From an uncultured Porphyromonadaceae bacterium (GTDB lineage: Bacteria > Bacteroidota > Bacteroidia > Bacteroidales > Muribaculaceae), in contig CANPGB010000024.1 of assembly GCA_947573485.1 (NCBI GenBank), positions 1-48,626 of the forward strand: a stretch of 48,626 nucleotides of DNA, written 5' to 3'. Of this stretch, positions 44,784-48,626 are shown piece after piece. Each line of letters opens with the position of its first letter. The stretch's first letter is position 1. Position numbers and translations under genes: made by a program. The notes beneath the pieces were generated by a model. It searched no databases and had not been told where the DNA came from. It saw only the letters and a list, made by a program, of their open reading frames with translations.

Positions 44784-47700
44784 TTATGGTCTAAAAAACT
44801 CGCCGCCGGAGATATCGTAGAAACGGTCGAAAAACTCCCGCAGGCGGCCGATAACATTTTTCTTTTTCTCAGCGCGGCGCGCCCCGGCGCCACCGAAGAG
44901 CCCCATGGGCGGCAGGATGTCGGCAATGGCTGTGCCGCTTTCCTTAACCTCGCCGTCGCGGAAACATTGGCTCACGAAGTCGAGGGCCTTTTCGCGGCGC
45001 AGGTTCTCAGAGGAGATTATTTCCTCAATCTGCTCCTGCTGGGCGCGGTGCACAAACTCCTTCCATTTGGCGTGGACGTCGTCGCCGGGAGTATGACCGG
45101 CGATAAAATCTTCGATAAGCTCCTTCTTGTTTCGCAGTGCGGGCGAGGCCTCTATTGCCTTGATTGCCTTTATTATAATCTCGCGGTCGTGAGGCTCGTC
45201 GCCGTCGAGCTGCCCCACGAGGAAGAGAATATAGTCGATGTTGATTTCTATGCTCTTCATGAGCTCCATTTCAAACACGAGGTCGTCGTTGATGTTTGTG
45301 AGAGTCCCTTTCTGCGGGCGATATTTATCGTGCAGTTCGTTGTAGAAACCACGGTAATCCACGAAATCATCGTCGGAGATTATCTTGTTTGCGGCAAACT
45401 CATCGAAAGTCATGAGAATATTGTGAGCGCGGAGAATGGTGCCGAAGAGCCTGATGAACTCTTTCTCGGCTTTCTCGCCCACAATTTCAGAGCCAAGGGG
45501 AAATTTAGCGAAGAGTTCGGCAATAAGCTCCTGCCAGCCGGGGACGTGGCGCCCACGCTCATCGTCGTAGCCGTAGAAATAGTCGTTGAAAGTCTTTAGC
45601 AAAATGAGGCCTGCGGCTTTCTTGTTGCCGAAGAGCTTAAGGCAATCGTTTGTGGCTTTCTCGAGGTTGCGGAAGCATACAATATTGCCATGGTCCTTAA
45701 TGGAGTTGAGTATGCGGTTGGTGCGCGAGTAGGCCTGCAGCAGGCCGTGGTAACGCAGGTTCTTGTCGACCCACAGGGTGTTGAGGGTTGTGGCATCGAA
45801 GCCTGTGAGGAACATATTGACAACTATAAGGAGGTCGACCTCGCGGTTTTTCATTCTGAGAGATAGATCCTTGTAGTAGTTCTGGAATTTCTCGGCCGAG
45901 GTATCGTAGCTTGTACCGAACATTGCGTTATAATCTTTTATGCAGGCGTCGAGGAACTCGCGTGACGATTGATCGAGCCCGTCGGTATCTTCGGGGGTTT
46001 CATCGTCGGTGTCTACATTTGGAGCGTAGCTGAATATTGTGGCTATGCGCAGACGTTTGGCCGGCGGAAGGAGTGCGTTCTGCTTCTGCAGCTCAGTGTA
46101 GTAGAGCTTTACAAAAGGAATTGAGGCAACGGCGAATATAGAGTTGAAGCCGGTGAGGCGGGTGCGCGCCTTGAGCTCGTTTACTTTGCCGCGGTCTTTG
46201 GCCGAGGCCACCTCGCTCACATTGGTAAGGCGCGAGAAAGAGTAGCTGCGGGCGTCGCGGCGGGTTTTCTGTTCGAAATGCTCCAGGATATACTTAGAAA
46301 TCAGGGCGATTCGCTCAGGAGCCATAAGAGCACGCTCGCGGTCGATGTTGTTTACTTTCTCATCGAGGATCTCCTCCTCTTCACGCATGGTGCGTATGTA
46401 GTCGACTTTGAAAGGCAGCACATTACAGTCGCGGATAGCATCGACAATGGTATAGCTGTGCAGGCGATTGCCAAAGGCGCCCTCAGTGGTGGTGAACTCC
46501 ACGTTGCGTATTGCTCCGGCGTTATCGGGGAAAATAGGAGTGCCGGTAAAGCCGAACATGTGATAGTTGCGGAACTTGCGTGTAATGGCACGGTGCATGT
46601 CGCCAAACTGCGAACGGTGGCACTCGTCGAAAATCAGTACCGTATGACTGTTATAGACGGCATGCTGCGGGTTACGTGCAATGAAGTTGGAGAGCTTCTG
46701 TATGGTGGTGATAATGATACGTGCGGCCGGGTCGTCGAGCTGCTTCTTGAGCACTGCTGTAGAGCCGTTTGAGTTGGCGGATCCGCGCTCGAAGCGGTCG
46801 TACTCCTTCATGGTCTGATAGTCGAGGTCTTTACGGTCGACCACAAAAAGCACTTTGTCGATTTCGGGCAGGCGCGATGCCAGGCGCGCCGTCTTGAACG
46901 ATGTGAGAGTCTTGCCCGAGCCCGTGGTGTGCCATATGTAGCCTCCTGCCTCGATTGTTCCGCAGGTGCGGGCGTTGGTCGAGGTTTTAATGCGTAGCAG
47001 AATCTCTTCGGTGGCAGCTATCTGATAGGGGCGCATGACCAGCAGGAGGTTCTCGGAGGTGAACACACAGTAGCGGGTGAGGATGTTGAGAAGGGTGTGT
47101 TTTGAGAAGAATGTGCAGGTGAAGTCGACGAGGTCGTAGATAGGCGTGTTGCTGCGGTTTGCCCAGTAAGAGGTAAACTCGAAGGAGTTAGAGGTCTGTT
47201 TCTTGCCTTTGGCCGGGCCGTTGTTCTGATTTGCGCGGCACACGGCGTCGCGGGTAGTATTGCTATAGTACTTTGTGAGCGTGCCGTTTGAGATAACGAA
47301 AATCTGTATAAACTCAAAGAGACCGCTTCCGGCCCAGAAAGAGTCGCGCTGATAGCGGTCGATTTGGTTGAAGGCATCCTTAATGCTCACGCCACGGCGT
47401 TTGAGCTCGACATGCACCAGCGGCAGCCCGTTGACGAGGATAGTCACGTCGTAGCGATTCTCATAAGCTCCGCCCTCGGGCACATATTGGTTGATAACCT
47501 GGAGGGAGTTGTTGTGGATATTGTTTTTGTCAATCAAGGCGATATTGACCAGCGAGCCGTCGGGGCGCTCCCAAGCCTTTACGTGGTCTTCCTGGATAGT
47601 GCGTGTTTTCTCCTCTATGCCCATGTTGGGGTTGCCTATATATTTGGCAAAGAAGTCGGCCCACTCGGCGTCGGCGAAAACAATGCCGTTGAGGCGCTCG

Positions 47701-47900
47701 AGTTGCCGCCGCAGATTTGCTATAAGCTCGCTCTCGCCGGTCAAAGGAAGGTATTCATAGGCCTGACGGGTGAGGCGGTCGATGAAATCTTTTTCAAGCT
47801 CTGCCTCGCTTTGGTATTGTGCGGCGCTGTAGTAGCCGGGCTCAAACTCGGCTACCACCGTCGACTCGGGATTTTGGCTTATAAGGTCGTATTCAGTCAT
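44784..47900 (-). CDS. hsdR: Type I restriction enzyme, restriction subunit HsdR
   Basis: A 1038-residue protein of normal length. It combines an N-terminal PD-(D/E)xK nuclease (D151 with E165-x-K167 in YDVTILVNGLPLVHVELKRR) with an SF2 translocase: Walker A TTGSGKT (325-331), motif II DECHRSQFG (425-433), motif III FGFTGTPIF, and a C-terminal helicase lobe with LIVVNMFLTGFDATTLNTLW and LLQAYSRTNR. It cuts unmodified DNA away from the target after ATP-driven translocation and requires HsdM and HsdS. The C-terminal part, after about residue 800, is the helical region that docks on the methylase. ATG 47900 is 11 bp after the hsdS stop. Confidence 0.95.
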   Translation of the reverse strand: MTEYDLISQNPESTVVAEFEPGYYSAAQYQSEAELEKDFIDRLTRQAYEYLPLTGESELIANLRRQLERLNGIVFADAEWADFFAKYIGNPNMGIEEKTRTIQEDHVKAWERPDGSLVNIALIDKNNIHNNSLQVINQYVPEGGAYENRYDVTILVNGLPLVHVELKRRGVSIKDAFNQIDRYQRDSFWAGSGLFEFIQIFVISNGTLTKYYSNTTRDAVCRANQNNGPAKGKKQTSNSFEFTSYWANRSNTPIYDLVDFTCTFFSKHTLLNILTRYCVFTSENLLLVMRPYQIAATEEILLRIKTSTNARTCGTIEAGGYIWHTTGSGKTLTSFKTARLASRLPEIDKVLFVVDRKDLDYQTMKEYDRFERGSANSNGSTAVLKKQLDDPAARIIITTIQKLSNFIARNPQHAVYNSHTVLIFDECHRSQFGDMHRAITRKFRNYHMFGFTGTPIFPDNAGAIRNVEFTTTEGAFGNRLHSYTIVDAIRDCNVLPFKVDYIRTMREEEEILDEKVNNIDRERALMAPERIALISKYILEHFEQKTRRDARSYSFSRLTNVSEVASAKDRGKVNELKARTRLTGFNSIFAVASIPFVKLYYTELQKQNALLPPAKRLRIATIFSYAPNVDTDDETPEDTDGLDQSSREFLDACIKDYNAMFGTSYDTSAEKFQNYYKDLSLRMKNREVDLLIVVNMFLTGFDATTLNTLWVDKNLRYHGLLQAYSRTNRILNSIKDHGNIVCFRNLEKATNDCLKLFGNKKAAGLILLKTFNDYFYGYDDERGRHVPGWQELIAELFAKFPLGSEIVGEKAEKEFIRLFGTILRAHNILMTFDEFAANKIISDDDFVDYRGFYNELHDKYRPQKGTLTNINDDLVFEMELMKSIEINIDYILFLVGQLDGDEPHDREIIIKAIKAIEASPALRNKKELIEDFIAGHTPGDDVHAKWKEFVHRAQQEQIEEIISSENLRREKALDFVSQCFRDGEVKESGTAIADILPPMGLFGGAGARRAEKKKNVIGRLREFFDRFYDISGGEFFRP

Positions 47901-47911
47901 AGTAGAATTGT

Positions 47912-48626
47912 TTATGCCTCCAGGGGTGTGAAGGTCAATAAGGAGTTACGGTAGTATTCGTAGCGCTCGCGTACGGCTGCAATTTCGGCAGGCAGCCCTG
48001 CGGTGAGGTCGTTGACAAGGGTGTCGAAACGGTCGAGGATGCCTACGATTTTTTCTTGCACGGGGAGTGGTGGGATTGGGAACGGCATGCTTTTGAGCTT
48101 GCCCATATCAACAGAAGCAAAACCCGACACATTGGTATTGTTCTTACAAAATGCATCAACGACAAACATATAGTAGTAGATAAACTTCGTTAGAAGTTTA
48201 TCTCTCAGCGATTTACTAACTTTTAAGTTAGTAAATCGCTGATTCGCAAGCGAATCAGCAATTAGGAGCGCATGCTCCCCGATTGTTGCTGTGGTTGCCA
48301 AAATAAACGTATTTGCCTCAAACAAACCTTTGCCTTTTATTGCTGCCGGTGTTATGTGCTGAATGGAATCGGAAAGGATTCTTCCGTTTTCTCTAATATC
48401 TTCCATTCTGAACCATGGAATTGTACCACCCTCCCAAAAAGCAGGATTATTCTTTGAGGGGGTATAACCATTACGCATTTCAAAGACTTCTTCCATTGAC
48501 TTCCATAAAACCTCGTAACTACGCCCCCCCCAGGTAGTTACACCTTCGGAGTCAAAGGACAGCAGCGCGTTGCGGTAGTACTCGTATTGTTGTTTACGCG
48601 CTTGCAGCTCCGCTTGCAGCTCCGCT
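47912..48626 (-). CDS. hsdS: Type I restriction specificity subunit HsdS, 3' part (5' end beyond window)
   Basis: The frame is open on the minus strand from the window end to a TAA at 47914-47912, giving about 237 residues without the start. The apparent ATG at 48496 is internal, because the same frame continues upstream with ELQARKQQYEYYRNALLSFD. This is the conserved inter-domain coiled coil that follows the first target-recognition domain. It is followed by the second recognition domain (EEVFEMRNGYTPSKNN, WFRMEDIRE, NQRFTNLKVSKSL, CKNNTNVSGFASVDM, FPIPPLPVQEKIV) and a second coiled coil ending RYEYYRNSLLTF, a repeat of the first. HsdS decides the DNA sequence recognised. GC content falls over the recognition domain. 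hsdM is expected beyond the right edge. Confidence 0.9.
   Translation of the reverse strand, partial: AELQAELQARKQQYEYYRNALLSFDSEGVTTWGGRSYEVLWKSMEEVFEMRNGYTPSKNNPAFWEGGTIPWFRMEDIRENGRILSDSIQHITPAAIKGKGLFEANTFILATTATIGEHALLIADSLANQRFTNLKVSKSLRDKLLTKFIYYYMFVVDAFCKNNTNVSGFASVDMGKLKSMPFPIPPLPVQEKIVGILDRFDTLVNDLTAGLPAEIAAVRERYEYYRNSLLTFTPLEA
48178..48259. repeat. Three consecutive perfect palindromes inside hsdS
   Basis: Palindrome A: 11-bp arms 48178-48188 and 48193-48203. B: 18-bp arms 48205-48222 and 48225-48242. C: 10-bp arms 48238-48247 and 48250-48259, sharing five bases with B. All three are perfect and each has a 2-4 nt centre. Confidence 0.9.

Follow-up and report, generated by a model that had tools for sequence, protein, structure and literature searches.

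Overlapping palindromes within the coding sequence of a Type I HsdS recognition domain keep their symmetry while their letters change

How can a conserved protein-coding segment consist of palindromes laid end to end, and what keeps them perfect? The question is raised by the hsdS gene at the end of the window, the stretch of 48,626 bases analysed here, which is an entire contig (C24). The preliminary description had reported three palindromes with arms of 11, 18 and 10 bp at 48178–48259, the third sharing bases with the second, and all three were confirmed in the sequence. All lie on the minus strand, as does the gene, and the peptide encoded across the array is IADSLANQRFTNLKVSKSLRDKLLTKFIY. 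P1 (48234–48263) codes for ADSLANQRF and has 14-nt arms (48234–48247 and 48250–48263) separated by a 2-nt loop, with an arm match of 93% and a single T.G pair; its perfect core, spanning 48238–48259, is a pair of 10-nt arms (48238–48247 and 48250–48259). P2 (48205–48242) encodes NQRFTNLKVSKSLR and has perfect 18-nt arms (48205–48222 and 48225–48242), also with a 2-nt loop. P1 and P2 overlap at 48234–48242, with 48238–48242 common to the P1 core and the 18-nt pair. P3 (48178–48203) has perfect 11-nt arms (48178–48188 and 48193–48203) and a 4-nt loop, and appears to be lineage-specific because it is clear only in the window and in one relative (L117, 10-nt arms).

Five palindromes with arms of at least 10 nt and a loop of at most 4 nt were found in the window, and three of the five make up the array. 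In 200 dinucleotide shuffles of the window the mean number of such palindromes was 0.23 and the longest arm was 13, and no shuffle contained three within 100 bp, bearing out the earlier statement that the array is far beyond chance. Folded as RNA, the 101-nt stretch that includes the array gave −41.2 kcal/mol, compared with −15.05 (sd 2.87) for shuffled versions (z = −9.1). An assembly artefact is an unlikely source, because the feature is also present in homologs from other genomes.

The gene itself (47912–48625, minus strand) is missing its 5′ part, as the contig end cuts it, and is followed by hsdR (44784–47900, minus strand). The array lies inside a recognition domain (PF01420, E = 1.3e-30) at 47981–48499 (minus strand, residues 43–215), the second of two in an EcoR124-like HsdS. 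The protein had been described as normal-looking HsdS, and assignment to the EcoR124-like Type I proteins agrees with the PF01420 match, the hsdM and hsdR partners, a relative of solved structure (7bst, E = 1.2e-40) and the linker repeat. The first half of hsdS was found at the start of contig C13 (locus L113), together with hsdM and a small ORF that we take to encode a four-helix-bundle protein. Both C24 and C13 end within DNA coding for AELQ-type repeats, which in the window is a 12-bp tandem repeat of AELQ linker units (48599–48626, minus strand); the assembly splits hsdS in this repeat, in the linker joining its two recognition domains.

When homologs were aligned across the segment there was no clean gap. 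Homologs from Bacillota, from gammaproteobacterial and actinobacterial plasmids and from other Bacteroidota aligned gap-free, most of them without long palindromes, so the earlier view that this is no simple in-frame insertion held, and in 18 of the domains compared the symmetry was kept with changed letters. The comparison used 38 domains drawn from 187 loci (tblastn E ≤ 1e-15, at least 44% identity, the NQ motif and a distinct segment); many of the genomes are metagenome-assembled and the compared rows are related. An NQ(R/Q) anchor is common to all 38 domains, while the neighbouring residues vary. P1 and P2 were both found in 18 of the 38, one per genome, 17 of these genomes belonging to the family of the window and one to another family of the same order. 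Perfect arms of P1 measure 10 to 15 nt in 17 of the 18, with 7 nt in L169. Those of P2 measure 11 to 18 nt in 15 and 6 or 7 nt in L154, L151 and L172, where one A.C mismatch breaks the stem. Among the other 20 domains, L122 has a P1 with entirely different arms (AACCGTTGATTAC) and no P2, and L156, which is not among the 38 and comes from a different class of the phylum, has P1 without P2. In the family of the window, both palindromes were present in 17 of the 18 genomes with a match at E ≤ 1e-25, and the exception (G006, with a domain outside the set of 38) was the weakest match among them. In these palindromic domains both arms of a perfect inverted repeat are translated within a conserved protein. 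When codons were shuffled synonymously with the protein fixed, the observed P2 arm was reached in at most 0.1% of trials for 10 of the 18 members and in 0.25 to 10% for the remaining 8.

Covariation between the arms was assessed in 14 of the 18 palindromic rows, the four with other loop lengths having been dropped. In these 14 sequences 98.1% of pairing cells were paired and changes on both sides (compensated changes) were seen at 9 pairs, both values higher than in any of 500 shuffles. The covariation score was 0.247, compared with 0.115 in the shuffles, and was reached by none of the 500. Of the five measures, the count of additional pair types was unexceptional (200 of 500 shuffles). Across all 18 domains Watson–Crick pairs made up 243 of 252 cells in P1 and 294 of 324 in P2, and the exchanges include swaps that are impossible via a wobble pair (C-G to G-C, G-C to T-A and A-T to T-A). 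Three columns (8, 27 and 60) vary jointly, in the same 5 of the 18 sequences, the variants being GCTGATT..AATCAGC..CGCTG and GTTGATT..AATCAAC..CGTTG, so that the middle copy matches both outer copies.

The reading frame and the codons give way to this symmetry. In L179, L180, L182 and L153 the span between the CGA/CAA codon and the right-hand TCG measures 29 or 32 bases instead of 30, which shifts the reading of the right arm by one base; in these 4 of 18 domains it codes for N R W and not K S L, with the symmetry still kept. The residues DS precede LANQ in all 18 palindromic domains and in none of the 20 others. The serine of this DS is always TCG and the alanine always GCG in the palindromic domains, while elsewhere in the same domains TCG makes up 11% of serine codons and GCG 18% of alanine codons. 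On these counts, codon choice is dictated by pairing, with residues that are free in the wider protein family frozen. Because the arms covary, the right arm is used in two frames and pairing fixes DS, TCG and GCG, we conclude from the alignments that the symmetry is kept at the level of nucleic acid, overriding the peptide.

Palindromes at the same level in other hsdS genes would have counted against the preliminary description, but outside this domain family they were scattered, bar one conserved linker motif. In many Bacillota hsdS (e.g. L044, L060, L066, L076 and L095) one palindrome or two adjacent ones, with arms TGTACCTCCA and GTGAAATTGTCC, encode the conserved linker PVPPLEVQ-REIVRILDNFT. 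A different recognition domain, the other one of the hsdS in L040, has a palindrome with 14-nt arms TTTCACATTTACTT just ahead of its KFLYY segment, a placement similar to that in the focal domain, and in L176 (2656–2724) tandem palindromes with 12- and 19-nt arms were found near the HsdS N-terminus, VTNCNHLKK..THVQIGEPVTNCHGL.

A scan of the loci also detected coding palindromes in genes adjoining the hsd loci, and the RhuM (PF13310) and DUF1016 (PF17761) families were searched in Bacteroidales, the families having been chosen partly after palindromes had been seen in them. The members examined were L231–L260 for RhuM, L261–L290 for DUF1016, L291–L320 and L010 for ORF6N, and L321–L350 and L202 for pth. 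Each family has one fixed site. A perfect arm of at least 8 nt was found there in 24 of 37 RhuM genes and 40 of 48 DUF1016 genes (3 of 51 DUF1016 genes were excluded from this count as the site was too short), leaving 13 and 8 genes, respectively, with a shorter perfect arm; with mismatches allowed the counts were 35 of 37 and 44 of 48. In 21 of 37 RhuM and 21 of 48 DUF1016 genes at least one of 50 synonymous shuffles gave an arm of 8, which implies that the peptides themselves favour weak palindromes. Some DUF1016 genes (L009 3333–3446, L164 1554–1704, L175 3059–3175 and L288) contain two similar in-frame palindromes with a spacer, resembling a repeat-spacer-repeat insert at the fixed site.

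Shared sites were then counted after thinning the genes to under about 75% identity, with ten synonymous shuffles of each. A single site was shared by 20 of 32 RhuM, 35 of 46 DUF1016 and 16 of 25 ORF6N genes, with at most 3 in the shuffles. The focal hsdS domain, for which 37 of the 38 domains were used, gave 19 of 37 at one of its sites and 14 of 37 at the other (shuffles no higher than 5). No comparable shared site was found in hsdM (2 of 43 at most, shuffles up to 4) or hsdR (2 of 44 at most, shuffles up to 3). The palindrome arms vary widely from gene to gene within RhuM, DUF1016 and ORF6N, and conservation at the RhuM site is below that of its flanks (identity 0.30 versus 0.49). Single members recorded as Bacillota, Rickettsiales and Elusimicrobia also have a palindrome at the fixed site. 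The pattern, with one fixed site per family, is not that of palindromes scattered over the protein genes of a genome with frequent gain and loss.

Among the ORFs of 716 kb of background sequence 14 coding palindromes with arms of at least 12 nt were found, several in short or shadow ORFs. One lay in the housekeeping gene pth, which was picked for that reason and is not a blind control; 14 of 29 pth genes have a palindrome at a single shared site, at VLDALAKASN. In the 19 of 31 rows with the motif [VI]LDAxAxASN (the other 12 lack it and were not counted), the Asp codon and the later Ala codon are coupled at their third positions in 19 of 19. C occurs with G in 12 and T with A in 7, with no intermediate, and the differences are purely synonymous. 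The probability of this coupling would be 1 in 50,388 if the rows were independent, though they are related. As in the hsdS domains, arm identity has been maintained through sequence change. Because pth is also positive, fixed-site coding palindromes are not special to defence genes, which weakens a defence-specific reading, and a general arm-homogenising process seems to explain most of the observations.

On balance we favour a reading in which the coding palindromes of the array overlap one another and stay perfect because their arms evolve in concert through template switching, with protein-constrained codons as the anchor. The anchor would be the codons of the NQ(R/Q)F motif, held by protein selection, with their reverse complement on both sides, P1 supplying the left-hand copy and P2 the right-hand one. 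A mutation in one arm would be carried across by DNA synthesis on the other, through a template switch at the hairpin, a process also called quasipalindrome correction, on which there is older work in bacterial genomes. The arms would move together, the peptide would follow where it is tolerant, and no dedicated function would be required; each copying event could alter several codons at once and could in this way diversify a recognition loop. An in-frame palindromic scar, as put forward at the outset, comes nearest to this explanation, but such a scar would not be passive because the symmetry is renewed while the letters change. Copying between arms rather than selection for structure is probably what maintains the symmetry, and replication probably the step at which it happens, judging from the end states seen in a comparison of related rows. 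The A.C mismatch that persists in 3 of the 18 P2 stems counts against copying. As a shared site is lacking in the hsdM and hsdR genes of these loci, copying alone fails to explain why some families have one, and the palindromes may have a selected role.

It is because hsdM and hsdR lack such a site that the main rival is a selected DNA element, either a dyad operator within the gene's own coding sequence, a cruciform or a mutation hotspot that diversifies the DNA-recognition loop, to which we give some tentative weight. The single fixed sites in RhuM, DUF1016 and ORF6N, set against their lack in hsdM and hsdR, are consistent with it, as are the variability of the RhuM site relative to its flanks and the retention of both palindromes in 17 of the 18 window-family genomes that have the domain. 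The same pattern in housekeeping pth argues against it, however, and arm letters that are nearly free are ill suited to an operator read by its sequence. A more specific proposal, which we regard as doubtful, is that DNA-recognising genes adjacent to Type I systems (HsdS domains, RhuM, DUF1016 and ORF6N) carry a fixed-site palindrome with free letters and selected symmetry that would act as a frame-safe engine for rewriting several codons at once, or as the protein's own operator.

A selected mRNA hairpin, of which the earlier suggestion of an mRNA structure limiting HsdS is one form, is possible but unlikely. The hairpin might be an attenuator-like switch in which P1 and an extended P2 compete for the middle segment. 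The strong folding, the three-way covariation, which fits two alternative stems, and the fact that the one imperfection in P1 of the window is a T.G pair in the sense strand are in keeping with it. On the premise that a selected mRNA stem would give more sense G.U than A.C among imperfect pairs, an excess would be expected, but the cells numbered 16 G.U and 13 A.C in hsdS and 6 G.U and 8 A.C in RhuM and DUF1016 together, counts that are small and not independent. They hint, weakly in number, at a process at the DNA level. Neither intermediate occurs in the 19 pth genes, the distance of the array from the gene start varies between genes, and an Rfam search of the array gave no match at E up to 1.

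The preliminary description had also suggested a hotspot for domain exchange, and a recombination site serving to swap recognition domains or their halves, or for inversion, would be one form of this; we consider it very improbable. HsdS genes are known to recombine, according to a survey (PMC7394358), and some palindromic domains have quite different C-terminal halves. With the palindrome columns omitted, the trait must change four times on the free tree and at least two changes are forced by well-supported branches, but a single palindromic clade was not rejected (p-AU 0.107); exchange inside the recognition domain may occur. No second hsdS was found near that of the window in a search of its own genome, the other hsdS matches being its own first half on C13 and a distant gene on contig C30. 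The arms are 0–6 nt apart within a single recognition domain, which leaves nothing to invert, and the palindromes accompany the domain in either position, first or second, within the gene. RhuM, DUF1016, ORF6N and pth have such palindromes too.

The idea that a mobile palindromic element (REP, MITE or Rickettsia-type) landed in the gene is scarcely credible. An ORF between hsdS and hsdR in the close relative L164 (7408–8028), a putative Y1 (RAYT-like) transposase gene, is the point in its favour, but no dispersed copies of the kind that REP, MITE or Rickettsia palindromic elements form in a genome were found, palindrome-free homologs have no gap and the arms differ between relatives. P1 specified at 19 letters was found in 3 of 61 genomes, all in hsdS, and in a second set in 2 of 395, again within hsdS each time. 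Relaxing the query to 12 specified letters brought up a few further sites in 10 genomes, in other genes or non-coding DNA. A structure-model search of 247 genomes with strict filters found its own locus alone, and a DNA search of plasmids and phages for the palindrome gave no match. Recent insertion of a mobile element is refuted by these data, and an ancient origin alone would remain. Three contigs in a viral collection encode relatives that lack the palindromes. A series of non-coding REP-like hairpins in L161, around 1088 (contig C7 of G036), contains GTGTTGATTCGCGCGCGAATCAACAC, a sequence with the same core letters as P1. Chance or codon coincidence is just as hard to credit: one exact 19-base copy of P1 in the viral collection, in an unrelated tape-measure-like gene where it encodes DSLANQQ, does look like chance, but the P2 arm is rare in synonymous shuffles, and the covariation, with a score that none of the 500 shuffles reached, refutes chance for the domain family.

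Compensatory changes are usually taken as proof of a selected RNA structure. Here they lie inside protein genes, among them pth, where all of them are silent, and look more like arm-to-arm copying. If copying is the cause, some covariation-supported structures in genes would be mutational, the complement of an adjacent stretch would determine parts of proteins, and template switching could be measured at many natural sites in bacterial gene families. Selection for the symmetry would mean, in contrast, that several DNA-recognising gene families share an unknown cis element. In a literature search that covered few subscription journals and no bioRxiv preprints, no title among the matches listed dealt with coding palindromes at a fixed site in any of hsdS, RhuM, DUF1016, ORF6N and pth.

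Among known systems, the operators of RptR (PMC12255303) are also palindromes linked to a Type I restriction locus, but they are 6-bp promoter sites with fixed letters that are read by a repressor. Phase-variable hsdS (PMC7394358) likewise involve inverted repeats in hsdS; those repeats, of at least 20 bp in that survey, are in separate hsdS copies that recombine, whereas the repeats here face each other inside one domain, and the search of the own genome found no nearby second hsdS with matching inverted repeats. The Rickettsia palindromic elements (PMC4316617; also treated in PMC6649704) are in-frame palindromes that leave the reading frame intact, but are inserts of 100–150 nt in many genes with a symmetry that fades with time, while here there is no insertion, no dispersal and a renewed symmetry. 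Closer to our reading, template switching has been proposed as both maker and keeper of RNA hairpins (PMC8794818) and has been described at inverted repeats in yeast genes, with an effect on yeast proteins (PMC8604942). As in those cases, the arms would be homogenised in multi-base steps, giving compensatory changes without selection for each step, though the published cases are RNA genes and young yeast strains and not a deeply diverged bacterial protein family. The mitochondria of Nematomorpha have perfect inverted repeats in conserved coding genes, for which template switching and a parasitic, self-maintaining character have been proposed (PMC6649704). There too both arms are translated, some palindromes overlap with competing hairpins, and conversion of the arms by template switching has been suggested. 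The Nematomorpha palindromes are long (to 284 bp), scattered and often gained or lost, in contrast to those described here, which are bacterial and short, occupy one fixed site per family across many genera and have had their compensatory and synonymous changes counted.
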